From assembly GCA_026125585.1 (NCBI GenBank), contig JAHCLD010000004.1:1-34334 (forward strand): a stretch of 34,334 nt of DNA, written 5' to 3'. Source of the stretch: Burkholderiales bacterium (lineage in GTDB: Bacteria; Pseudomonadota; Gammaproteobacteria; Burkholderiales; SG8-41). Made by a program: the position numbers and the translations under genes. Each line of letters begins with the position of its first letter. Within the stretch, counting starts at the first letter, position 1. The notes beneath the pieces are model-generated. The model was not told where the DNA came from, searched no databases, and was given only the letters and a program-made list of their open reading frames with translations. Below, piece after piece: positions 3,529-29,215 of the stretch.

Positions 3529-3686
3529 TCAGTAGCCGAAGGTGTGGCGGCTGCCGGCGCCGGAATGGACCACCCTGTCTGGCATCTGCTGGCGCGGCCT
3601 GTCGATGAAACGCTCGCGGGTGCAGTGCATCGGCCCGATCGCGTCGGGGTTGATGGCCCGCGGCGCCTTCAGCATGTGTTGCAGGG
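3529..3686 (-). pseudogene. Relic of the 3' end of an MBL-fold hydrolase gene (duplicate of 8079-8238)
   Basis: Read on the minus strand this segment encodes a C-terminal fragment of about 52 residues, including INPDAIGPMHCTRERFID and ending GSRHTFGY before a stop codon. It lines up with the last residues of the intact hydrolase at 8079-9071 (INPDVIVPMHCTGERFID, ending GSRYTFGMQ). By hand about 20 of 152 aligned bases differ, near 87% identity with no internal gaps. Homology stops abruptly at about 3686, so the rest of the gene is absent. The stretch from 3326 to 3777 holds no other convincing gene: the open frames there are shadows of GC-rich sequence. The relic and the intact gene enclose the GntR, enolase and Bug genes as a direct repeat. 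Confidence 0.85.
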
Positions 3687-8078: not shown

Positions 8079-9071
8079 CTACTGCATGCCGAAGGTGTAG
8101 CGGCTGCCGACGTTGGAATAAACCACCTGGTCCGGCATCTGCTGGCGCAGCATGTCGATGAAACGCTCGCCGGTGCAGTGCATCGGCACGATCACGTCGG
8201 GGTTGATGGCCTGCAGTTCCTTCAGCGTGTGCTGCAGGTAGTCCACGTGCGAGGGGCCGAGATGGAAACCGCCCATCACCGCGTGCACCTTGTCGACGTT
8301 GGCGGCCTTCATCGCGCTGCGCACCGTGTTGATGATGCCGGTGTGGCCGCAGGAGGAGATCACGACCAGGCCCTTGCCCTTGACGATGTAGCAGGTCGCG
8401 TGTTCGTCGGGGTGGGTGTCCTTGACCAGATTGCCGGCGCGCTCGGCTTCGGTGAAATGGTCGTCCACCACCAGCGAGCCGCCGGTGACCGTCTCGAAGG
8501 AATCGCGCTCGATGTAGCCCGACGTGAAGGCGCCGTCCAGCGCCTGCGGCTGCGGGCAGCACACCGGCATCACCTTCTGCGCCTCCAGCGCCGCGCGGTC
8601 GAGCGTGCACCAGGGCATCGGATCGCCGCCTTCCTTGATCCACTTGGTGCGGAACACCGTCTCGCCGCCGACGTAGAGCGCGATGTCGTCACGCATCTGC
8701 GCGCGGTGCTGCTTCACAAAACCCTGCAGCCCGCCGAAATGGTCGAGGTGGCCGTGGGACAGGATCAGCCCGTTGATCTTCGCGGGTTCGATGCCCAGCA
8801 GCTCGAAATTGCGGTTGATGATCTCCGGCGTGTAGCCGAAGTCGAGCACGTACTGCGCCTTCGCGCCGTCCTTCTCCGAGGTCAGGTGCAGCGACAGGCC
8901 CCACTCGCAGGCGAAGGTGCTCTCCGGCCGGCCGTAGATGCGGCCGACGTGCTCGACCTGCACGTGCGGATGCGTCATGCGCGGCAGGAAGCGCTCGTAG
9001 CGGGAATCGACGAGCACGCGGACGCTGAGGGCGTCGACGACGGGGGCGGTGAACGGGCTGTTGGCGACCAT
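8079..9071 (-). CDS. Metallo-beta-lactamase-fold hydrolase, COG1237 type
   Basis: The 330-residue cytoplasmic protein carries the metal motif HGHLDH (residues 106-111, in LSHGHLDHFGG), a second metal region CGHTGIINT (about 241-249), GGFHLG (about 267) and PMHCTGERF (about 296). This set fits the COG1237 branch of the MBL superfamily, which includes dihydropterin-linked phosphate synthase-like hydrolases; the actual reaction is not readable. The start at 9071 has GGAGG upstream and gives an MVANSPF terminus. The gene is last in a minus-strand operon after a mandelate-racemase-type enzyme and a Bug gene, so it probably opens a ring, lactone or ester made in that pathway. A decayed copy of its 3' end lies at 3529-3686. 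Confidence 0.9.
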   Translation of the reverse strand: MVANSPFTAPVVDALSVRVLVDSRYERFLPRMTHPHVQVEHVGRIYGRPESTFACEWGLSLHLTSEKDGAKAQYVLDFGYTPEIINRNFELLGIEPAKINGLILSHGHLDHFGGLQGFVKQHRAQMRDDIALYVGGETVFRTKWIKEGGDPMPWCTLDRAALEAQKVMPVCCPQPQALDGAFTSGYIERDSFETVTGGSLVVDDHFTEAERAGNLVKDTHPDEHATCYIVKGKGLVVISSCGHTGIINTVRSAMKAANVDKVHAVMGGFHLGPSHVDYLQHTLKELQAINPDVIVPMHCTGERFIDMLRQQMPDQVVYSNVGSRYTFGMQ

Positions 9072-11414: not shown

Positions 11415-11618
11415 GCGTTCAGTCGACCAGTTCGATGTCGTCCCAATCCCTTTCCTGCAGCAACTGCTTCAGTGGGGCTGCTAGAAAGCGACCGCTGCGT
11501 CGTCGAAGCGCTTTTTCACGCTGCGGTGGAGCAGCGGCTCGACCGTGCGGTACTTCGAGCGGCCGAGGATCTTGTACATGCCCTTGTATTCGTTGTGTAT
11601 CTTTGCGCGGTGGCGGGC
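11415..11618 (-). pseudogene. Relic of the 3' end of a DUF2235 gene (duplicate of 14939-15143)
   Basis: The segment copies about 204 bases around the end of the intact DUF2235 gene, in the same orientation. The first 59 bases are identical, and by hand about 17 positions differ over the whole length (near 92% identity). A one-base deletion and clustered changes near 11473-11490 break the frame, so only the tail LKQLLQERDWDDIELVD before the stop remains readable. Homology ends near 11618, some 30 bases before the TctAB stop. The relic and the intact gene enclose the TctC-TctAB pair as a direct repeat. The flanking bases 11270-11414 hold no gene. Confidence 0.88.
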
Positions 11619-14748: not shown

Positions 14749-14942
14749 GAACTCCTCCTCGCTTCGTTGTGGATGGGCCAAAACCGCCGCGGTCATCCGG
14801 GGGTGTCGACGATCTGCGTCGTCTGCATGACCCTTTGCCCGGCCGGCACGCTTTGCGCAGCGTGCCACACACGGGTGCCGGGCGTCACTCTAGCCCCTGC
14901 CGCCGATGCGGTCAATTAAGTTAGACGCCGCGACGCCAGCGT

Positions 14943-15953
14943 TCAGTCGACCAGTTCGATGTCGTCCCAATCCCTTTCCTGCAGCAACTGCTTCAGCGCG
15001 GGGCTGTTGTAGGCGACCGCTGCGTCGTCGAAACGCTTTTTCACGCTGCGGTGGAGTAGCGGCTCGACCGTGCGGTACTTCGAGCGGCCGAGGATCTTGT
15101 ACATACCCTTGTATTCGTTGTGCATCGCCGCCCGGTGGTCGGGCTTGAGGCTGGCCAGGAAATGGCGCTCGAAGGCGAGCCCGAAGCCGGAGGCCTCGCG
15201 CGTCATCCACTGTCCGGCGAAATCGCCCAGCGCATGGTCCTCGTAGCCGCCGCCGATGTCGGTGTGCACGCCGGCGAACCAGACCTGCCGCAGGTCGATG
15301 CCCTCCTTGGCCTCCCACAGGGACGGCAGGAAATCCTCTCGGCGCTCGTCGATCGCGACCGCGTGGCGGGCGTGCCGGATGATCTTGCTGGGCTGCGTGT
15401 CGTGAAAAAGATAGCGGCCGGTGTTCAGCGTGCCGAGGAAGGGCGCGGGAATGCCCAGCGCGCCCACGGTGTCCCACACGCCGATGAACTCGATCGGCGA
15501 GATGTCGGCGACCGCATGATCCCTGCGGAACTGCTTCGATTTCGGCGCATCCGGCACCGAGTTCGCGCTGCGCTCGCGGTACAGCTCGTAGGCCCCGGGA
15601 ATTTTTTCCGCGTGCGCGCGTTTCAGGATGCCGCAGTTGCGGATGAACCCGGCCAGCGAGCGCACCGTGTAGGCGCCGCGGCTGAATCCGAAAAAGAACA
15701 GGGCATCGCCGGGCGCGTAGTTGTGCACGATGAAGCGGTAACAATCCATGATGTTCTTGTCGAGCCCCGCGCCGGTGGCGCCGCCGCTGATCGAATCGCC
15801 CTCGGTGCCCACGCCCCAGTCGTAGTACACGACCTGGCGGGCGCCGCCGGCCCCGGCCGGCGCGATGCCGCGCGCGAGGCGCATCAGGTGGGTGGGATTT
15901 TCGGACTCCGGCGATTGCCAGGTGCCGTCGGAGCAGATGACGATTCGTTTCAT
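14943..15953 (-). CDS. DUF2235 alpha/beta-hydrolase-like protein
   Basis: The 336-residue protein opens with MKRIVICSDGTWQSPE and contains GFSRGAYTVRSLAGFIRNCG, a nucleophile elbow with Ser91, plus WDTVGALG and VWFAGVHTDIGGGYED. These are the signatures of DUF2235. The domain resembles alpha/beta hydrolases and is shared with Tle1-type phospholipase effectors of type VI secretion. No VgrG, immunity or secretion gene is adjacent and there is no signal peptide, so a cytoplasmic hydrolase is as likely as an effector. The start has no strong ribosome binding site. Its last 200 bases are duplicated as a relic at 11415-11618, so the present tail may be the incoming copy. Confidence 0.85.
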   Translation of the reverse strand: MKRIVICSDGTWQSPESENPTHLMRLARGIAPAGAGGARQVVYYDWGVGTEGDSISGGATGAGLDKNIMDCYRFIVHNYAPGDALFFFGFSRGAYTVRSLAGFIRNCGILKRAHAEKIPGAYELYRERSANSVPDAPKSKQFRRDHAVADISPIEFIGVWDTVGALGIPAPFLGTLNTGRYLFHDTQPSKIIRHARHAVAIDERREDFLPSLWEAKEGIDLRQVWFAGVHTDIGGGYEDHALGDFAGQWMTREASGFGLAFERHFLASLKPDHRAAMHNEYKGMYKILGRSKYRTVEPLLHRSVKKRFDDAAVAYNSPALKQLLQERDWDDIELVD

Positions 15954-20617: not shown

Positions 20618-21208
20618 ATGGCAATTGACGTCTTCCCCCAATTCATCAGGGAAAATTATGAGGTGCATCAATGGCGACACGCTTGTGCAATTTTGGCGCG
20701 TGATTTTCCCCATGAGCTGAACGAGATCGTAGATGTTCTTACCCGTTTCAGGGTTAGAAAAAGCTGGATAGCCAAGGGCGGTGGTAATAAATCGCCGATT
20801 TCAAAATGGATCGACGGCGAATTATCAAGGTACGGTTGGGTAGCAAAAAACTTTGATACCAGAATTGTGGTTGATCAGACGCAGATTGACTCTCCTACGC
20901 ACGAGGTTGATTGCTTTAAAAATAGGATAGCTTTGGAGATCGAGTGGAATAACAAAGATCCTTTTTTTGATCGAGATTTAAACAATTTTCGTTTGTTGTT
21001 TGATTTACGTGTGGTGTCGGTTGGTGTGATCATCACCCGGTCGGACGAACTCCAGAAAATTTTCAATTCCCTGGGTCGAGGCTCGTCTTACGGCAACTCG
21101 ACTACTCATATGTCAAAGTTGCTTCCCCGAATTCAAGGCGGTGGTGGCGCTGGTTGCCCATTGCTGGTTTTTGGAATCAAATCTTCCCTCTATGACAAAA
21201 ATAGTTAG
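20618..21208 (+). CDS. BglII/BstYI-family type II restriction endonuclease
   Basis: The 196-residue protein is recognised by EVDCFKNRIALEIEWNNKD followed by PFFDRDLNNFRLLFDL and VGVIITRSDELQKIF. Asp98, Glu107 and Glu109 form a D-x8-E-x-E set with the spacing of the BglII active site (Asp84, Glu93, Gln95 as I recall it), so the metal-binding chemistry is probably retained with Glu in place of Gln. BglII and BstYI cut AGATCT and RGATCY, but the target here cannot be assumed. The gene is much richer in A and T than its neighbours, which suggests recent transfer. It overlaps the methylase gene by 17 bases, so the two are translationally coupled. AGATCT occurs in the window at 4230 and 24869. Confidence 0.85.
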   Translation: MAIDVFPQFIRENYEVHQWRHACAILARDFPHELNEIVDVLTRFRVRKSWIAKGGGNKSPISKWIDGELSRYGWVAKNFDTRIVVDQTQIDSPTHEVDCFKNRIALEIEWNNKDPFFDRDLNNFRLLFDLRVVSVGVIITRSDELQKIFNSLGRGSSYGNSTTHMSKLLPRIQGGGGAGCPLLVFGIKSSLYDKNS

Positions 21209-21872
21209 CATTGCCAGGCCGACCGCCGCGCAGGATTTTGCGGCGAAGGTAACCGGACTTTATTCAACCATCGTTGCCGATCCACCTTGGCGGTTCGAGA
21301 ATCGGACGGGAAAGATGGCGCCTGAGCATCAGAGATTGCTTCGTTATCCGACCATGGATTTAGAAGAAATCTGTGAGATTCCGGTGGCGCAGGTTTCTGC
21401 GGAAAATTCACATTTGTACCTATGGGTGCCTAATGCGCTATTGGCTGAAGGGCTTCAGGTTATGCGTGCATGGGGCTTCAAGTACAAATCAAATTTGGTT
21501 TGGTACAAGGTTAGAAAAGACGGAGGGCCCGACGGTCGCGGGGTTGGTTTTTACTTTAGGAATGTCACGGAGTTGGTTTTGTTCGGTGTGCGGGGGCACA
21601 TGCGTACTCTTCCGCCCGGGAGGCGTCAGACAAACATTATGGTTTCCCAAAAAAGAGAGCATTCGCGTAAACCAGACGGTATTTACGGAATAGTTGAATC
21701 GTGCTCGCCTGGCCCCTATCTCGAACTTTTTGCAAGATTTTGTCGATCAGGTTGGTCCCAATGGGGTAATGAAGATGTTGAGCAAAACTCCCGGCTTGGG
21801 AAGGCAAAACGTAAAGGCCATGTTGAGCAATTGGCAATGTTTCAGCGTAAGGCCCAATACAAGGTGGGGTAA
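21192..21872 (+). CDS. MT-A70-family adenine-N6 DNA methyltransferase of the R-M pair
   Basis: The 226-residue protein has the catalytic DPPW (residues 30-33), the conserved NLVWYK near 101-106, and the SAM-binding element LELFARFCRSGW with WGNE near 178-194. DPPW ahead of the SAM loop is the MT-A70 order, seen in bacterial adenine methylases such as M.MunI. It should protect the host at the site cut by the nuclease upstream, so that site should contain adenine. The start is the ATG at 21192, inside the nuclease gene end; an in-frame ATG at 21141 would extend the overlap and adds no family sequence. Like the nuclease gene it is visibly AT-richer than the flanks. No specificity subunit or controller gene is present. 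Confidence 0.88.
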   Translation: MTKIVSIARPTAAQDFAAKVTGLYSTIVADPPWRFENRTGKMAPEHQRLLRYPTMDLEEICEIPVAQVSAENSHLYLWVPNALLAEGLQVMRAWGFKYKSNLVWYKVRKDGGPDGRGVGFYFRNVTELVLFGVRGHMRTLPPGRRQTNIMVSQKREHSRKPDGIYGIVESCSPGPYLELFARFCRSGWSQWGNEDVEQNSRLGKAKRKGHVEQLAMFQRKAQYKVG

Positions 21873-21948: not shown

Positions 21949-23406
21949 TTATTTAATCAGTTTGCTAAACGTTGTGCCAATGACTCCTTTTGTTTGGTTA
22001 GTTTTTTTGAGCTGATCGTTTAACCAACCAATGCTCGTTTTGGTTTGGGTCACGGTTTCGGAAAGCATCCGTTTGGTTTCTTCACTCTGTGGTCCCCCCA
22101 ATCCCTTCCTCCCAAATACCATATATTCCGCACTGATCACCTCGCGGAATTCCTTCTCCGTCAGCGGCATCTTGCTCTTGGCCTGTTCCTCATAAATCCG
22201 CTGCGCCTCCGCAAACGGAATCTCCTGCAGCCTTAAGCCCTTGCCCCGCCCGTAATCCGTCAGCTTGCTGGCGAAGTGATGCCCAATGCGAAACGGCACC
22301 TCGGCCTTCTGCAGCAGCGCATCGGCGATCTCGGTGGTGGTGGAGTAGTCCGCATTGACCTCTTCCAGCGCGCGGTCCTTGTTGACCACGATGGCATCGA
22401 CCACCTGTTTCAGGATTTCCAGCACCTTCAGCAGCCGCGTTGCCGGCACCGGGTCGTACATGCGGTAGTCGAACATGCCCGTGCGGTTGTTGTGCGATAC
22501 CCAGGTCATGGTCTGCATTTCACTCAGCGTGATGCTCGATTGCGCGCGCAATTGCTCGAGAGCGGCGGGGTTGCGCTTCTGCGGCATGATGCTGCTGGTG
22601 CCGGTGAGCTTGCCTTCGGCCAGCATGAACCAGGGCCGGGGTTCAGCGTACTGAGCGTGGATGTCCTGCGCGAGCATACCCGTTTCCACGGCGAGGATGC
22701 TGTAGGCGGCGGCGACTTCCAGCGCGCTGTCGATGGGCGCGAGATGGTTGGCGTCGTAGGCGTTTCCGACGAGGCCGTCGAAGCCCAGCAGTTCCGCTAG
22801 GCGGTGGCGGTCGAGCGGGAAGCTGGAGGTGGCCAGCGCCGCTGCGCCGAGTGGACATTTGTTGACCCGCGCATACACTTCCTGCAGGCGCTCGGTCGCG
22901 CGCGCGAGCGCGGATTCGAAGGCGAGCAGGTAGTGGGCAAACGTCGTCGGCTGGGCTTGCACGCCGTGGGTGTAGGCGGGGATGATGGTTTCGACGTGTT
23001 CTTCGGCGCGTTTCAGCAGGCTTTCGCGGGCGGCGATCACGGCCTGCATGACCTGTAGCAACTGGTCGCGCAGGTTCATCCGCGCGATGGTCGAGGCGAG
23101 GTCCTGCCGGCTGCGGCCGGTGTGCAGCCGCGAGGCTTCGGGGCCAGCCAGCGCGATCAGCCGCGGTTCGTAGTCGAGGTAATCGGCGGACACGCGCGGC
23201 GTGGTGTTGTTGGCACCGGTGCGTTCGTTCTCGATCAGTTGCGCGATGCCTTTCGCGATGCGCGCGGCGACGTCCTTCGGCACGATGCCGGTCTCGGCCA
23301 GCATGACGATCGAGGCTTTGTTGATTTCATCCAGCCATTCGATGGAGCGGCCGCCGCCGCGGAAGGTGGCGTTGATGTCGAGGGTGCCATGTTCTGAGTT
23401 GCTCAA
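21949..23406 (-). CDS. Argininosuccinate-lyase-like enzyme (aspartase/fumarase superfamily)
   Basis: The 485-residue protein has the superfamily signature SSIMPQKRNP (residues 271-280, flexible loop with the catalytic Ser), HTGRSRQD (95-102) and YTHGVQAQP (154-162). In true ArgH the second motif is usually GRSRND; Gln replaces Asn here, and the genomic setting is catabolic. It is therefore probably a paralogue that eliminates fumarate from an aspartate-like N-substituted compound rather than the arginine biosynthetic enzyme. The start is a TTG at 23406 with AGGA seven bases upstream. The last 45 codons are much richer in A and T than the rest and adjoin the R-M pair. Its gene is followed on the same strand by none, and preceded by the FCD regulator. 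Confidence 0.85.
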   Translation of the reverse strand: MSNSEHGTLDINATFRGGGRSIEWLDEINKASIVMLAETGIVPKDVAARIAKGIAQLIENERTGANNTTPRVSADYLDYEPRLIALAGPEASRLHTGRSRQDLASTIARMNLRDQLLQVMQAVIAARESLLKRAEEHVETIIPAYTHGVQAQPTTFAHYLLAFESALARATERLQEVYARVNKCPLGAAALATSSFPLDRHRLAELLGFDGLVGNAYDANHLAPIDSALEVAAAYSILAVETGMLAQDIHAQYAEPRPWFMLAEGKLTGTSSIMPQKRNPAALEQLRAQSSITLSEMQTMTWVSHNNRTGMFDYRMYDPVPATRLLKVLEILKQVVDAIVVNKDRALEEVNADYSTTTEIADALLQKAEVPFRIGHHFASKLTDYGRGKGLRLQEIPFAEAQRIYEEQAKSKMPLTEKEFREVISAEYMVFGRKGLGGPQSEETKRMLSETVTQTKTSIGWLNDQLKKTNQTKGVIGTTFSKLIK

Positions 23407-23417
23407 GAGGGTATCCT

Positions 23418-23450
23418 AAAAATATTTAATAAAATCAGTTATTTATAATT
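23418..23450 (+). repeat. AT-rich repeat, copy B
   Basis: AAAAATATTTAATAAAATCA is followed by GTTATTTATAATT. It lies just upstream of the lyase gene and matches copies at 20514 and 29269, orientation the same. It could be a shared protein-binding site or a recombination scar. Confidence 0.45.
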
Positions 23451-23620
23451 ATATTTGCCTTGCCGGTAAGTAATCGCCAGACGGACTGATTTTTACCTAT
23501 TTTCAGAGCAGGCGGGTGGCGTCTTACGAAAGACCAGTCGTCGAGGAGGACGACTTATTGGCACCGCGCAATACGCGGAGATTTTCAGATGGCGTAGCCG
23601 GGGTGCCGGGAGGGGGTACG

Positions 23621-24313
23621 TCAGCGCAATTCGGTGGGCAGCACTGCAAGGATCATCGTTGCAGTGAGCTCAATGTGCTCTTCCATGAGACGACAGGCCA
23701 GTTCGGCATTCCGATTCAGGGCCGCCTCGGCAATGGCGGAATGCTCGGACTGCACATCACGGGGCACGTGGCGAAACTGGAGGAAGTTCCGGCGGTAGCG
23801 ATCAGACAGATCGTACAGGGTGTCGCAGAACTGCAGCAGGACCGGCAGTCGGCATGCCCCGATCAGGGCTGTGTGGAATTTCCGGTGCCAGCCTTCCCAC
23901 GCTTCGTCAATGTCGTCCATTTTCGCCGGATTGCGCGATTTGAATTTGGACAAGTGGTGCATCGATGACACGACTTCGGTTTCCCAAGCGTCGTCCCCGT
24001 GTTGTATGGAACGTTGCAGCGCAATCACTTCCAGCGACTTCCGCAGCAGAGTGACTTCGCGCAGGTTGTCGGCGGATACCGGTGCTACCTGGAAGCCGCG
24101 CTGGTCAGCGGCTTGCAGCACCAAGCCTTCTGAAACCAGTCGCGAGATTGCTTCCCGCAACGGACTGAAGCTCACGTCATAGGTGGTGCGCAACTGATCC
24201 AAGCGCAGTTTTTCGCCCGGGCCAATTGCTCCGGTGAGGATTTCCTTGCGCAGCCGGGAAAGCGTCGTTGAGAAAACGGTACCGGATTCGGTGGGGGTCT
24301 TGGTGTGTGCCAT
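23621..24313 (-). CDS. GntR-family transcriptional regulator, FadR subfamily (FCD domain)
   Basis: The 230-residue protein has an N-terminal winged helix-turn-helix (about 14-80: LRKEILTGAIGPGEKLRLDQL, VSFSPLREAISRLVSEGLV, QRGFQVAPVS) and an all-helical FCD domain (about 88-215). The FCD metal-binding residues are partly visible, with Asp/His in WHRKFHTALIG and SEHSAIAEAAL. FCD domains bind carboxylic acids with a metal ion. It is divergent from the cyclodeaminase-aldolase-Bug operon and upstream of the lyase on the same strand, so it probably controls both. An inverted repeat with 8-base arms lies in the divergent gap. No strong ribosome binding site is visible at the ATG. Confidence 0.9.
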   Translation of the reverse strand: MAHTKTPTESGTVFSTTLSRLRKEILTGAIGPGEKLRLDQLRTTYDVSFSPLREAISRLVSEGLVLQAADQRGFQVAPVSADNLREVTLLRKSLEVIALQRSIQHGDDAWETEVVSSMHHLSKFKSRNPAKMDDIDEAWEGWHRKFHTALIGACRLPVLLQFCDTLYDLSDRYRRNFLQFRHVPRDVQSEHSAIAEAALNRNAELACRLMEEHIELTATMILAVLPTELR

Positions 24314-24389
24314 AAAGAGTTTTTGGCTTTAATTCTTTGATTATATTGTAAAAATAAACTTTTATGGCAATAATCGACAAATATATTTA

Positions 24390-24417
24390 TTATCGATTAA
24401 TAAAATAATATCGATAA
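24390..24417. promoter_or_regulatory. Inverted repeat, possible operator of the FCD regulator
   Basis: TTATCGAT (24390-24397) and ATCGATAA (24410-24417) are perfect reverse complements separated by 12 bases. A related half-site, AATCGACAA, lies at 24372-24380. The position between the divergent regulator and the cyclodeaminase gene suits an operator. The sequence here is very AT-rich, so chance pairing is more likely than usual. Confidence 0.5.
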
Positions 24418-24447
24418 ATAGAAAATCGTCGGTCGAGGAATTCTCAT

Positions 24448-25452
24448 TTGCGTTACCTCTCGGATACGGAAATTGCGGGTTTGCTGGCGTGGCCCGATGT
24501 CATCCAGGTTCTCAGAACCGCATATCAAACGGGACACAAACCGGATGCCGTGCCGGCCCGGGTGGTCGCGCGGGGGGATACCTCGCGTTTGCGCGTGTTG
24601 ACTGCGGTGCCTTCGGGCAACCGCTACATGGGAACGAAGATCATATCGAGCGCGGTGACCGGCGCGACGTACACCATCATGTTGTGGGCTCAGGACACTT
24701 CCGAGCCGGTCTGTTTGCTCGATGCGGAACGCATTACAGCCATGCGCACAGGCGGCACTTCTGCCGTGGCCATGGATCGTTTATTGCCCGCCGGCCCGGT
24801 GCGTGCTGCCGTGCTGGGCGCCGGCACCGAAGCATCGGGTCATGTTCGTGCGCTTTCCGCCATCCGCAAGATCTCGTCACTCACGGTCTTCAGTCCGACT
24901 TCGTCCAATCGTGAGCGCTTTGCGAAAACGATGGCCGAAGAACTTGGGGTGATTGCGCGCGCGGTTTCGACGGCGCGGGAGGCGGTTGATGGCGCGCAGC
25001 TCGTCATTGCCGCGGCGCGCTCGCGCGATGAGACCCCGATACTGGAAGGCGCCTGGCTGGCACCGGGCATGCTGATTGTGTCGATAGGCTCAACCCTGCC
25101 CGAGCAGCGCGAGATTGACATCGAGGTTGTGCGCCGCGCGGATCTCATCGTTGCCGACATGCCGGACGAGGTGGCTCATGAGACGGGCGACATGCTGGCT
25201 GCGGCAAGGGCCGGTGTGGATTTCGCGGGGAAACTGATATCGCTGTCCTCGTTGCTGCAGGACGGGGTGCCGACGGCGCGGCGCGCCGGGAGCATCGTTC
25301 TCTTCAAGTCAGTGGGGTCGGGGCTGCAGGACGTGACCCTGGCCGGGATGTGTTTTGACAAGGCATTGCAGCAGGGCGTGGGAACGATGTTACCCGTGAC
25401 GATGAAACTCAAGAGTCGAAAGCAAGTGCAGTCAGGACAGAAGAATCTTTAA
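24448..25452 (+). CDS. Ornithine cyclodeaminase / mu-crystallin family enzyme
   Basis: The 334-residue protein has the family layout: a substrate-binding N-domain with MGTKII (Lys64), ERITAMRTGGTSAVA (conserved Arg, near 100), a Rossmann domain with LGAGTEASGH (123-132) and a C-terminal KSVGSGLQD carrying the catalytic-type Asp. Family members deaminate ornithine, reduce cyclic or linear imines, or act on N-substituted alanines with NAD(P). The reaction here is not fixed by sequence. The start is a TTG at 24448, seven bases after GAGGAA. It heads an operon with a DapA-like aldolase and two Bug genes, and sits near a lyase of the argininosuccinate family, which suggests breakdown of an opine- or aminopolycarboxylate-like compound. 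Confidence 0.88.
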   Translation: MRYLSDTEIAGLLAWPDVIQVLRTAYQTGHKPDAVPARVVARGDTSRLRVLTAVPSGNRYMGTKIISSAVTGATYTIMLWAQDTSEPVCLLDAERITAMRTGGTSAVAMDRLLPAGPVRAAVLGAGTEASGHVRALSAIRKISSLTVFSPTSSNRERFAKTMAEELGVIARAVSTAREAVDGAQLVIAAARSRDETPILEGAWLAPGMLIVSIGSTLPEQREIDIEVVRRADLIVADMPDEVAHETGDMLAAARAGVDFAGKLISLSSLLQDGVPTARRAGSIVLFKSVGSGLQDVTLAGMCFDKALQQGVGTMLPVTMKLKSRKQVQSGQKNL

Positions 25453-25470
25453 CCGGCAAAGGATGGTCAC

Positions 25471-26490
25471 ATGATTCCGTACAAAAAGGCAGATGCGCGC
25501 GCATGGGCAAAAGACAACATGAAGGGCGTTGCGAACGTGGTGATTCCCTCGTTTTCGTCCGATCTGACAAAGCTTAACGAGAAAGGGATTCGTCATGATC
25601 TTGCCAAGGAACTCGAGCTCGGGTTCTGGGGCACCCTGCTGGTGTCCGAAGTGGCCATCACGGTGCCGGAATACCGGCAGTTTTTCCAGTGGTCGAAGGA
25701 CATGGTCGGCGACAAGCTGGTGCTGATCCATCACGCGGGTTTCAATACCCTGGCGCAGAACATTGAGGCGGTGAAAATCGCCGAAAAAGAAGGCGCGCAG
25801 CTCGTTTTGCTTGCTTATCCGCAGAACTTCTATCCGACCACGGCGAAGGAAATCTACGACTACACCAAGTCTTTTTGCGATGCGACGGATCTTGGCGTGA
25901 TCCTGTTCTCGGTGCCGCATTGGGGTTTTGAGCGCATCCATCCGGCCGGCATGCCGCCGGAATTGATCGCGCAGATGATCAAAGACATACCGAACATCGT
26001 GTGCGTGAAATCGGAGGGCGGCAATCCGACGCCGTCAGGGTTTATCCAGACTTGGAAACGGCATTCGCATGAAGTAGTAGTGACATTTCCGGTTGAAGCC
26101 GAGGCATTGCCGTACATGGGGCTCATTCCGATGCAGTTCATGGGCACCAGCAATTCGGAATATTACGGCGCGATGATCCCGAAAATGTTCAATCTCGCAC
26201 ACGACGGGAAATTCGAGGAGATGATGGAGCTGTACTGGCAGTTGCATCCCGCGCGCATGGCCTACAAGCATGTCGGGGGTACATTCCGCGGCGGCATTCA
26301 TGTGACGCATCGTACGTTGTGGAAATACATGGCGTGGCTGCAGGGCTTCAATGGAGGTCCGTTGCGCCAGCCGGCGCTGAAGGTCAGTGATTCGCATATG
26401 CGGCAACTGCGGGAGGCCTCCAGGAAATCGGGCCTGAATCCGACGCCGGATCCGGATTCCCAGTATTTCATCGGCCGCAACCCTGTTTGA
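25471..26490 (+). CDS. Dihydrodipicolinate-synthase (DapA/NanA) family aldolase or lyase
   Basis: The 339-residue protein follows the family barrel: VIPSFSSDLTKLNEKGIRHDL, then GFWGTLLVSE in place of the common GTTGE, the Schiff-base Lys180 in NIVCVKSEGG, and an altered tyrosine region (LFSVPHWGFERIHPAG). It is about 40 residues longer than DapA, mainly at the C-terminus. The altered phosphate- and carboxylate-loop residues and its catabolic setting make it unlikely to be the lysine biosynthesis enzyme. Such members usually cleave a 2-keto acid to pyruvate. It starts 18 bases after the cyclodeaminase gene, and a Bug gene follows 16 bases after its stop, so the operon is tight. Confidence 0.87.
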   Translation: MIPYKKADARAWAKDNMKGVANVVIPSFSSDLTKLNEKGIRHDLAKELELGFWGTLLVSEVAITVPEYRQFFQWSKDMVGDKLVLIHHAGFNTLAQNIEAVKIAEKEGAQLVLLAYPQNFYPTTAKEIYDYTKSFCDATDLGVILFSVPHWGFERIHPAGMPPELIAQMIKDIPNIVCVKSEGGNPTPSGFIQTWKRHSHEVVVTFPVEAEALPYMGLIPMQFMGTSNSEYYGAMIPKMFNLAHDGKFEEMMELYWQLHPARMAYKHVGGTFRGGIHVTHRTLWKYMAWLQGFNGGPLRQPALKVSDSHMRQLREASRKSGLNPTPDPDSQYFIGRNPV

Positions 26491-26506
26491 TTTTCTGGTG
26501 AACGTC

Positions 26507-27484
26507 ATGCGATTAATTCGCTTTGCAGGCTGGAGCGGGCTCACGGCCATGCTGTGTTTCGCGTCCGCAGGGGGCGTTTCTGCCCAAGCTTACCCGGACA
26601 GGCCGGTCCGGCTGGTGGTGCAGTCCGTCCCCGGAGGAACTTCGGACCAGATGGCGCGGATGATCACCTCGGAGCTCGAAACAAAACTTGGACGCAACGT
26701 CATCGTCGACAATCGTGCCGGCGCGAGCGGGATCATTGCCACCGAGATCGTTGCGAGAGCGCAGCCTGACGGCTACACCTTGCTGCACACGACCGCAGCT
26801 TTTGTCACAAACTCGGCATTGAACCGCAAGTTGCCGTACGATGTGCAGAAGGATTTTTCGCCAATCAGCAATGTGGCCTTGGGAACCGGCTATCTGCTGG
26901 TCGTAAATCCGTCGGTACGAGCGAACTCGGTGCAGGAACTCGTCGCGTTGGCGAAGTCCGGGACGCTTGCTTATGGATCGCCTGGTATTGGCAATATTCT
27001 GCATCTTGTCAGCGAGATGTTTAATTCATCTGCCGGCACGCGCATCCTGCACGTGCCATACAAGAGTTCCGGCCTGGTGATCAACGGACTCGTCAGTGGC
27101 GAGATCAAGATCGCATTCGCGACGCCGGTGGTAAGCCTGCCGCAAATCAAGAACGGCAAGTTGCGAGCGCTTGCTTTTACGGGATCGGCACGGATGCCCA
27201 GCATGCCCGAGTTGCCAACCGTCGCGGAGTCTGGTTTGCCGGATTTCGTGGTGAATGGCGGGTGGCAAGGATGGGTTGCGCCTGTTCGGGTTCCCCCGAA
27301 AATCATTGAGACTCTGCATCGGAACCTCCATGAAATCACGCATGGCGCACGGATGCGTACTTATCTTGTTGAAAGCGGTTATCAGCCGCTGGGCAACGAT
27401 CCACGGGAGTTTCGAGCATTCATTGCCTCGGAGCTTGATCGGTACAAAAAAATCGTCCAATTGGCGAATATCAGGCTGGAGTAG
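26507..27484 (+). CDS. Bug/TctC-type periplasmic solute-binding protein
   Basis: This 325-residue protein has a signal peptide (about 1-26, ending GVSAQ) and mature sequence AYPDRPVRLVVQSVPGGTSDQ, VIVDNRAGASGIIATEIVAR, QPDGYTLL, RILHVPYKSSGLVING and a final ELDRYKKIVQLAN. The ATG at 26507 is used; GTG at 26498 is an alternative with equally weak signals. It directly follows the aldolase gene and is followed by another Bug gene 71 bases on, so it belongs to the cyclodeaminase operon. It presumably delivers the operon's substrate. The permease is not encoded here. Confidence 0.92.
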   Translation: MRLIRFAGWSGLTAMLCFASAGGVSAQAYPDRPVRLVVQSVPGGTSDQMARMITSELETKLGRNVIVDNRAGASGIIATEIVARAQPDGYTLLHTTAAFVTNSALNRKLPYDVQKDFSPISNVALGTGYLLVVNPSVRANSVQELVALAKSGTLAYGSPGIGNILHLVSEMFNSSAGTRILHVPYKSSGLVINGLVSGEIKIAFATPVVSLPQIKNGKLRALAFTGSARMPSMPELPTVAESGLPDFVVNGGWQGWVAPVRVPPKIIETLHRNLHEITHGARMRTYLVESGYQPLGNDPREFRAFIASELDRYKKIVQLANIRLE

Positions 27485-27555
27485 CGTGATATCCGGTTGA
27501 GGCGGTATTGCGGGCATCTGCGCTTCCGGCGCGGGCTGCCCAGGAGGAGACATCT

Positions 27556-28521
27556 GTGATTACGCTGCGAGTGTGTGTTCTGGCGGTTCTGGCGTCGTGT
27601 GTCTCTGGCGCAGCAGTTGCGCAGGGTTATCCAGAAAGGCCGCTGCGGCTGATCGTACCGCTTGTTGCCGGCAGCGGCACCGACCTGATGACGCGCCTGC
27701 TTGCCCAGAAGTTGGGTGAGCGCCTTGGGCAGCAGGTGATCGTGGACAATCGTGGCGGGGCGGGCGGCATGATCGGCGCCGAGCTTGCGGCGCGCTCACA
27801 GGCGGACGGTTACACGCTTTTCATGGGAGGGTCGGTTACCCTGACCATTACGCCCGCCGTTTACAGCAAGATTCCCTATGATCCGCTGCGGGATTTTATG
27901 CCGGTAGCGTCAATTTCACGCTTCTACAGCGTGCTTGTGGCCACACCTTCCATAAATGCCAAATCCATGAGTGAGCTCATTGCGTACTCTCGTTCGCATC
28001 CGGGTGAACTGCGTCTTGCGTCGGCAGAGCCGGGTACGGCGAGCCATCTCGCGGGACAGCTCCTCGCCAGCATGGCCAAGATTGATTTGCTGCAGGTGCC
28101 ATACAAGGGCGGTACGATGCGGCTTAACGCTTTGGCCACCGGCGAGAGCCATGCATCGTTCCTGACGGTCTCCGCTGCGTTGCAGTTCGTAAAACAGCTC
28201 AGGTTGCCGTTGTTGGGTGTTACCAGCCTCAAGCGCCTGTCTCCGCTGCCCGCGGTGCCAGCCATAGCCGAAAGCGTGCCGGGTTATGAGTGGAGCGGTT
28301 GGCAGATTCTCATGGTGCCGGCCCGGACACAGCCCGCGGTGATTGACCGCTTGCGCCTGGCGGTTACCGATATCGTTGCTTCACAGGAGTTCAAACGGTA
28401 TCTCTCTGCCGAGGGATCTGAGGGTTTTGACAAAACTCCCGACGAACTGCGGCAATACATACGTGCCGAAATGACCCGGAACGGTGCGCTGGTCAAATCG
28501 TCGGGTGCGCGCGCCGACTGA
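27556..28521 (+). CDS. Bug/TctC-type periplasmic solute-binding protein
   Basis: This 321-residue protein has a short signal peptide (about 1-22, ending AAVAQ) and GYPERPLRLIVPLVAGSGTD, VIVDNRGGAGGMIGAELAAR, QADGYTLFMG, LLQVPYKGGTMRLNALATG and a C-terminal AEMTRNGALVKSSG. The start is a GTG at 27556, eight bases after AGGAGG; an in-frame ATG-like frame beginning at 27508 lacks a ribosome binding site and adds a charged leader before the signal. It is the last gene of the cyclodeaminase-aldolase operon. Two different Bug genes in one operon also occur at 5985-8018. The two could bind different ligands or one could be a sensor. Confidence 0.9.
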   Translation: MITLRVCVLAVLASCVSGAAVAQGYPERPLRLIVPLVAGSGTDLMTRLLAQKLGERLGQQVIVDNRGGAGGMIGAELAARSQADGYTLFMGGSVTLTITPAVYSKIPYDPLRDFMPVASISRFYSVLVATPSINAKSMSELIAYSRSHPGELRLASAEPGTASHLAGQLLASMAKIDLLQVPYKGGTMRLNALATGESHASFLTVSAALQFVKQLRLPLLGVTSLKRLSPLPAVPAIAESVPGYEWSGWQILMVPARTQPAVIDRLRLAVTDIVASQEFKRYLSAEGSEGFDKTPDELRQYIRAEMTRNGALVKSSGARAD

Positions 28522-28623: not shown

Positions 28624-28654
28624 AAGTTGTAAATATGATTGATGGTTACAACTT
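28624..28654. terminator. Inverted repeat between convergent genes, possible bidirectional terminator
   Basis: AAGTTGTAA (28624-28632) and TTACAACTT (28646-28654) form a perfect 9-base stem with a 13-base loop. It lies between the Bug gene and the convergent membrane protein gene, whose stop codon is inside the right arm. There is no long T-tract on either side, so termination would be weak or factor-assisted. Confidence 0.4.
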
Positions 28655-29215
28655 TCCCTCCGCGCTGTCCTTGACCTTCGCTTCGCCCGCCCGCAGCCGC
28701 CTGTGCCACATCAGCAGCAGAGGCACCACGGCAAGCGCGCTGACGAAATAGCCGAGCAGCCACAGCCAGTGGTTCATCTGCTCGCTGGTTTCGTGATCGA
28801 AGGTTTCGCGGTAGTCGATCAGGCGGCGGCCCTGCTGGTCGATCTGCCACAGGCGGTTGCCGAAATCGGGGTGCGGCTCGTACCACAGCGTGACCGGGCT
28901 GCCGCGGCGCAGCGCGCGGCTCGCGCGGGTGTAGGGGCCGGGGCCGTTCATGCGGCCGCTGTCGATCACGTATTCGGTGTCCGCGCCGTGCAGCCGCAGG
29001 TGGAGGGTGTCGATGTTAGGGCCGTAGCGGACGTAGCGGCTGTCCGTGCGTAGGTCGTCGACGATGCCCGAGGCCTGGCGCAGGTCCTCGCGGCCGGGGA
29101 TGGTCTGGCCCTGCAGCGCCGACATCAGCAGCGCGATGCCGGCGACGCACCACATCAATCCGAAGAGCGCCGGGCGGTGGCGCATCAGAAATTCACTGTC
29201 GTGGAGGCGGAACAT
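28646..29215 (-). CDS. DUF3592-like membrane protein, function unknown
   Basis: The 189-residue protein has two membrane segments (about 16-35 and 148-168) around a region of about 110 residues rich in charged and aromatic positions (GIVDDLRTDSRY, HLRLHGADTEYVIDSGRMNG, VTLWYEPHP). A short beta-rich soluble domain between two helices is the layout of DUF3592-like proteins; I am not certain of the family. The C-terminus is charged and cytoplasmic or periplasmic depending on topology. It stands alone on the minus strand, convergent with the Bug operon. An internal ATG at 29185 is a possible alternative start. Function unknown. Confidence 0.7.
   Translation of the reverse strand: MFRLHDSEFLMRHRPALFGLMWCVAGIALLMSALQGQTIPGREDLRQASGIVDDLRTDSRYVRYGPNIDTLHLRLHGADTEYVIDSGRMNGPGPYTRASRALRRGSPVTLWYEPHPDFGNRLWQIDQQGRRLIDYRETFDHETSEQMNHWLWLLGYFVSALAVVPLLLMWHRRLRAGEAKVKDSAEGKL

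Follow-up and report, generated by a model that had tools for sequence, protein, structure and literature searches.

A catabolic gene module of the ornithine cyclodeaminase/DapA type, probably set beside an independent orphan lyase in a Burkholderiales bacterium

Introduction

Do genes which lie side by side and look like the parts of one pathway actually belong together? This question is raised by six genes at positions 21949 to 28521 of contig JAHCLD010000004.1 (GenBank assembly GCA_026125585.1) from a Burkholderiales bacterium of the GTDB lineage SG8-41, of which a stretch of 34,334 nucleotides, called the window in the following, was analysed. An original prediction had combined a lyase of the argininosuccinate lyase (ArgH) family, an enzyme of the ornithine cyclodeaminase (OCD) superfamily, a DapA-type aldolase, an FCD regulator and two Bug solute receptors into one divergent cluster dismantling a secreted metal chelator or opine. 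All six open reading frames are present at these positions, and Pfam matches confirm the families named for them. The locus is, in our view, probably composite, consisting of a self-contained, FCD-regulated catabolic module (FCD-OCD-DapA-Bug-Bug), probably for the uptake and breakdown of an N-containing acid, set beside an orphan lyase which is independent of it. What stands of the proposed cluster is the FCD-OCD-DapA-Bug-Bug unit, while the lyase lies outside the conserved part.

Insertion of the module beside a resident lyase gene

A module of 5.1 kb has been inserted between a gene encoding a membrane protein and the resident lyase gene, as empty sites and a duplicated lyase end reveal. In the loci L010, L013 and L025, which harbour no module, a homologue of the membrane-protein gene is found directly upstream of the lyase gene (with small genes between the two in L010), while in the window and in the related locus L006 both genes are separated by the 5.1-kb segment, which is 84% identical at the DNA level between these two. 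The order in L006 is membrane protein, small genes which read as a HicA/HicB pair, a 5' fragment of the lyase gene, the module and the intact lyase gene, and the left part of this locus aligns to the module-free L010 locus. The fragment repeats the 5' end of the lyase gene over about 98 nt at 98-99% identity inside an alignment of 156 nt which is 84% identical. From this duplicated end and from the patchy distribution of the module we infer that the event was a gain here and not a loss elsewhere. The G+C content at third codon positions (GC3) amounts to 0.67-0.73 within the module, to 0.80 in the lyase gene and to 0.91 in the gene on the other side. No tRNA gene is present at the module boundaries, nor in the window as a whole.

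The lyase occurs apart from the module

Use of the lyase as a query against 84,980 species genomes yielded 38 orthologous loci with about 58-80% overall identity, 29 of which are informative with respect to the module as their upstream sequence extends over 6.9 kb or more. Both the genus of the window and other betaproteobacteria commonly carry the lyase, and it is independent of the module: FCD-OCD-DapA-Bug-Bug lies beside it in just one of the 29 informative relatives (L006), and whole-genome searches found the DapA gene missing from 36 of the 38 lyase-bearing genomes. The remaining two genomes are those of L006 and L010, the latter carrying DapA (67% identical), OCD and Bug genes on another contig with no lyase gene there. 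The module-bearing genomes G144 and G559 possess, as their best lyases, proteins of 32-36% identity, which is the range of ordinary ArgH, and in module-bearing G178 a sister-clade lyase of 40% identity is encoded 1.47 Mb from the module. Distant lyases (34-37% identical) on plasmids of Agrobacterium, Caballeronia, Paracoccus and Comamonadaceae likewise stand alone and share no neighbours, and around the sister-clade lyases of five annotated plasmids no common partner genes occur. Co-occurrence of the six genes in other genomes, put forward as a check together with the prediction, therefore fails for the lyase.

A separate observation concerns a more distant clade of lyases, where a Bug receptor gene follows the lyase gene, mostly directly downstream and on the same strand (L030, L031, L033, L034, L036 and L039). 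Genes for Bug, CitE-like and CaiB-like CoA-transferase proteins are located upstream of the lyase gene in this clade, on the opposite strand.

The OCD-DapA core recurs in other genomes

The core was surveyed in 16 loci with a DapA homologue at least 42% identical to that of the window. Without exception an OCD gene is adjacent to the DapA gene or located within 4 kb of it. Apart from L006 and L083, which belong to the genus of the window, the loci come from Variovorax, Roseomonas, Bradyrhizobium, Novosphingobium, Corynebacterium, Rhodococcus, Paraburkholderia, Streptomyces and others, thus spanning several classes plus Actinomycetota, and the lyase considered here lies beside the core in L006 only. 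The DapA subfamily is rare (three of 399 sampled genomes of the order); distant homologues of 28-36% identity (L066-L068) represent a different subfamily and have no OCD neighbour. An aldehyde dehydrogenase gene, SSADH-like by annotation and best model, accompanies the core in 13 of the 16 loci. An FCD regulator gene adjoins the OCD-DapA pair in five, L055, L056, L057 and L061 among them, and a VOC extradiol-type gene is likewise present in five; genes for FAH-family hydrolases, cupins and FAD monooxygenases recur around the core. The window holds no aldehyde dehydrogenase gene of its own, and the homologues encoded elsewhere in its genome are only 29-40% identical. Apart from a paper on hydroxyproline (PMC4113996), the literature searched, mostly non-subscription, contains no relevant catabolic cluster with OCD and DapA. 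The core is a real catabolic unit which apparently has not been described so far, and the remark accompanying the prediction that such a combination is not known from description holds for the conserved OCD-DapA-FCD partnership.

The OCD and DapA proteins and possible substrates of the core

The OCD protein clearly belongs to its superfamily (PF02423, 133 bits compared to a cut-off of 24), and its closest solved chain is a pyrroline-2-carboxylate reductase (6t3e). It remains below the NCBIfam cut-offs of pyrroline-2-carboxylate reductase, SbnB, BhcD, EutC and alanine dehydrogenase (138 bits at best versus 266-500), and all OCD and DapA proteins scanned from the core loci score below the cut-offs of the named NCBIfam families. 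Within the DapA homologue (PF00701, 53.9 bits) Lys180 aligns with the Schiff-base lysine of DHDPS, while Phe146 occupies the position of the catalytic tyrosine of the YNVP motif, with phenylalanine being present in all OCD-linked members aligned. With the lysine retained but the tyrosine replaced, the pyruvate release originally ascribed to this protein is uncertain. Its structure, predicted from a two-sequence alignment, has a pLDDT of 38, too low to be of use. The core would most likely deaminate or reduce an imino or amino acid and cleave the 2-oxo acid.

Among described systems, hydroxyproline catabolism comes closest in uniting the OCD, DHDPS and aldehyde dehydrogenase superfamilies; its 4HypE/t3HypD pathways bring together exactly these three, along with transporters (PMC4113996). 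Were the core of this type, its enzymes would correspond to pyrroline-2-carboxylate reductase, pyrroline-4-hydroxy-2-carboxylate deaminase and alpha-ketoglutarate semialdehyde dehydrogenase, which accords with the closest solved chain of the OCD protein. The proline racemase which defines this catabolism is, however, missing at the module loci: no gene of the proline racemase superfamily is present in the genome of the window, the sole match above cut-off among six genomes lies in G178 about 2.6 Mb from the module, and the diagnostic MCGH motif was not found near any module locus. As the OCD and DapA proteins also score below the named models, we consider a hydroxyproline-type pathway quite improbable and, with no proline racemase accompanying the module, have rejected it.

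It is possible, though tentative, that the OCD-DapA-SSADH core completes the catabolism of N-containing (hetero)aromatic compounds after ring cleavage by an oxygenase, handling an imino or 2-oxo acid and releasing a semialdehyde, in which case the window would represent a reduced version fed by the uptake of a ring-opened acid. A VOC extradiol-dioxygenase-like gene is added in the Bradyrhizobium, Roseomonas, Corynebacterium and Streptomyces loci, several loci contain an FAD monooxygenase gene, the solved relatives of which include 6-hydroxynicotinate and methylhydroxypyridine-carboxylate oxygenases, and FAH-family hydrolase and cupin genes are found in many. Yet such oxygenases are missing from the window as well as from L006, L048, L049 and L065, the FAD monooxygenase family is broad, and none of the members is characterised. 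Where oxygenases do accompany the core, an N-containing aromatic substrate is a reasonable guess.

The lyase resembles ArgH and EDDS lyase but, by its active-site residues, is neither

The lyase shares its domains with ArgH and, at 279.4 bits, narrowly misses the cut-off of the ArgH model TIGR00838 (279.5 bits). The catalytic-serine loop is intact (TSSIMPQKRN compared to GSSxMPxKxN in the superfamily), and SSIMPQKRNP is invariant in 26 orthologues. In contrast, the ArgH motif YNxDxQEDK is missing, with GMFDYRMYDPVP in its place, and at this position the lyase and its orthologues exhibit a conserved block, HN(N/T/V)RxGMFDYRMYDPVP; in addition, RSRQD replaces the RSRND of ArgH. A separate ArgH-type gene (L002) in the same genome encodes both YNxDxQEDK and RSRND, its product being 29% identical to the lyase. 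The lack of the ArgH motifs and the presence of this separate gene led us to reject the lyase as the housekeeping ArgH, and the prediction that it does not serve arginine biosynthesis is borne out.

By sequence, the closest solved protein is ethylenediamine-disuccinate (EDDS) lyase from Chelativorans sp. BNC1 (208 bits, 31% identity). The predicted structure of the lyase (mean pLDDT 79.7, with active-site loops below 50) finds its best fold match in the same enzyme (6rx8/6g3d, TM 0.81), above all ArgH and crystallin entries. Both enzymes have the fumarase/aspartase superfamily fold and the SSIMPQK loop in common. The substrate-near residues of EDDS lyase are R112, N113, Q159, N288, D290 and Y320 (PMC12363623). 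At these positions the lyase of the window carries R, Q, H, N, A and M, so that only two of six, equivalent to R112 and N288, are kept, while N113 is changed to Q, Q159 to H, D290 to A and Y320 to M. With four of the six residues changed, an EDDS lyase was rejected as well. D290 and Y320, which are mutated in the deposited EDDS lyase variant D290M/Y320M, are naturally A and M here; the amine partner may therefore be another one, of lower polarity. Since its residues fit neither ArgH nor EDDS lyase, the protein is best called, going by sequence, a member of a third clade beside these two. The kinship to lyases freeing fumarate from N-substituted aspartates, on which the prediction drew, holds with respect to the nearest solved structure, while the active-site residues match neither ArgH nor EDDS lyase.

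One pathway or two parts

If the six genes formed a single pathway for dismantling a secreted chelator or opine, the lyase would free fumarate from an N-substituted aspartate, the OCD enzyme would oxidise the amino acid thus obtained and the DapA homologue would release pyruvate. The proximity of the lyase to EDDS lyase in sequence and fold is in agreement with this, as are the codirectional lyase and FCD genes with a gap of 214 bp between them, the arrangement kept in L006, and the presence of another fumarase-superfamily lyase beside OCD-DapA-Bug in L048. However, lyase and module occur apart from each other in nearly every genome, the module has been inserted, and no siderophore or opine export or synthesis genes occur among the named neighbours. 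Furthermore, ATCGAY boxes, a pattern picked after inspecting the region and considered a candidate FCD operator, are confined within the window to the divergent FCD/OCD promoter, with none upstream of the lyase gene. With the core widespread without the lyase, we regard the single pathway as unlikely; the co-occurrence counts and the empty sites led to its rejection as a unit.

A pairing of OCD-like and ArgH-like enzymes is also seen in Amycolatopsis japonicum, in its genes aesA-aesC for [S,S]-EDDS biosynthesis. They are biosynthetic, include a cysteine-synthase-like enzyme and lack DapA, FCD and Bug genes; in the window, the pairing which they resemble is not conserved.

Several observations weigh against the composite nature of the locus. 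GC3 values near 0.69 are also found in genes slightly outside the module, and the window itself retains no lyase fragment at the far edge of the module. Both bearers of the full cluster, the window and L006, keep the arrangement at protein identities of 85-96%, and a lineage-specific joint use of lyase and module in these two is conceivable. The Tyr-to-Phe exchange weakens any assumption of an aldolase function for the DapA homologue. Finally, OCD-DapA-Bug of L048 (G144) appears to form an operon with a fumarase-superfamily lyase of another kind and with a gene resembling Asp/Glu racemases. This second association of the core with a lyase of the superfamily is suggestive at most, given that about 0.4-0.5 such associations are expected by chance (estimated on the basis of some five such genes in each genome and of 20 kb inspected for each of about 14 independent loci).

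The apparent operon in L048 (5774-12155) comprises PcaB/adenylosuccinate-lyase-like, Asp/Glu racemase-like, AraC regulator, OCD, DapA and Bug genes and, being compact, is a good candidate for finding the substrate of the OCD-DapA core. It is doubtful, although conceivable, that the core is a so far undescribed mobile catabolic unit for imino and 2-oxo acids with exchangeable front ends, these being either ring-cleaving oxygenases (Bradyrhizobium, Roseomonas, Corynebacterium) or fumarase-superfamily lyases (ArgH-like in the window and L006, PcaB/adenylosuccinate-lyase-like in L048). In the case of the lyases, an N-substituted aspartate would be split into fumarate and the amino acid to be passed on to the core.

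For the composite locus, we infer substrates and reaction directions as follows. The FCD protein would most likely control the divergent promoter between its own gene and OCD-DapA-Bug-Bug. The Bug receptors would capture a carboxylate for a tripartite tricarboxylate transporter whose genes lie elsewhere, the OCD enzyme would interconvert an amino or imino acid and its ketimine or 2-oxo acid with NAD(P), and the DapA homologue may cleave or dehydrate the 2-oxo or imino acid via a Schiff base formed with K180. The resulting aldehyde would then, in most genomes, be oxidised by an SSADH-like aldehyde dehydrogenase. The lyase would act independently, probably in an elimination by which a compound resembling an N-substituted aspartate loses fumarate or a similar acid.

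The six-gene story splits into two testable parts. One is the OCD-DapA(-SSADH) core, which carries no named function and is widely spread among bacteria of soil and skin and those associated with plants. The second part is the third clade of ArgH/EDDS-type lyases, which are abundant and annotated as argininosuccinate lyase, a label their active-site residues argue against.

Gene content of the locus

Positions of the features are compiled in Table 1. The dN/dS values compared to L006 amount to 0.025 for FCD, 0.039 for DapA, 0.11 for OCD, 0.10 and 0.15 for the two Bug genes and 0.26 for the lyase; values this low show the genes to be functional. Pfam TctC scores of the Bug proteins are 208 and 194 bits. 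The TctC/Bug receptor family is extremely expanded in the genome of the window (G000; 2.5 Mb, 74% complete), with 141 TctC-family matches or about one per 18 kb, for which reason two neighbouring Bug genes are, taken alone, weak evidence. The flanking membrane protein has no Pfam match.

Table 1. Features at and next to the six-gene locus, in window positions
Feature	Position	Strand or context	Remarks
ArgH/EDDS-lyase-like orphan C-N (or C-X) lyase	21949..23406	(-)	Resident gene, outside the inserted module; PF00206 (Lyase_1) 125 bits, plus ASL_C2
Inserted 5.1-kb module FCD-OCD-DapA-Bug-Bug	23413..28521		84% identical collinear DNA in L006; missing at the same flanks in L010, L013, L025
GntR/FCD regulator	23621..24313	(-)	Pfam FCD and GntR; closest model CsiR, 144 bits, sub-threshold (cut-off 218)
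ATCGAY repeat boxes, candidate FCD operator	24369..24401	divergent FCD/OCD promoter	Boxes conserved in L006
OCD-superfamily imine reductase/amino acid dehydrogenase (putative)	24448..25452	(+)	PF02423 (OCD_Mu_crystall) 133 bits
DapA/NAL-superfamily enzyme, distinct subfamily of ~339 aa	25471..26490	(+)	PF00701 (DHDPS) 54 bits; Lys180 kept, Phe146 replaces Tyr of YNVP
TctC/Bug solute receptor	26498..27484	(+)	Pfam TctC; conserved adjoining DapA in L006, L048, L083
Second TctC/Bug solute receptor	27508..28521	(+)	Pfam TctC
Flanking membrane protein gene	28646..29215	(-)	Directly precedes the lyase gene where relatives lack the module, and thereby marks the site of insertion

Duplicated gene ends in this lineage

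Fragments of the lyase gene near an intact copy are not restricted to the module. Fragments of its 5' end are found in L006, L007 (1203-1349) and L017 (4945-5094), fragments of its 3' end in L012 (12916-13347), L013 (12276-12431) and L082 (468-623), in each case separated from the intact copy by unrelated genes. A test of 174 genes in 15 loci revealed such terminal fragments for several of them, all oriented like the intact gene. Insertions seem to have occurred repeatedly at the lyase locus. By all appearances, modules enter at the ends of genes and a displaced end stays behind, with either an integrase or one-sided homologous recombination as the possible cause. In this lineage, direct adjacency can stem from such insertions, and by their recurrence unrelated genes come to resemble a cluster; gene neighbourhood by itself therefore says little about pathways here.

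Two pairs of direct repeats are present elsewhere in the window. The first (3535-3685 and 8088-8238; 151 nt, 87% identical) duplicates the 3' end of gene 8079-9071 and brackets a GntR/UTRA-enolase-Bug-Bug segment. The second (11415-11613 and 14939-15138; about 199 nt, 94-97% identical) duplicates the 3' end of gene 14943-15953 and brackets a TctA-TctC segment; L099 has a homologue of this gene without adjoining TctA-TctC. Directly downstream of the lyase gene, a low-GC region (20618-21872; 44-50%) encodes a BglII-type restriction endonuclease and an MT-A70-type DNA methyltransferase in overlapping listed open reading frames, a pair which is likely an acquired type II restriction-modification system.

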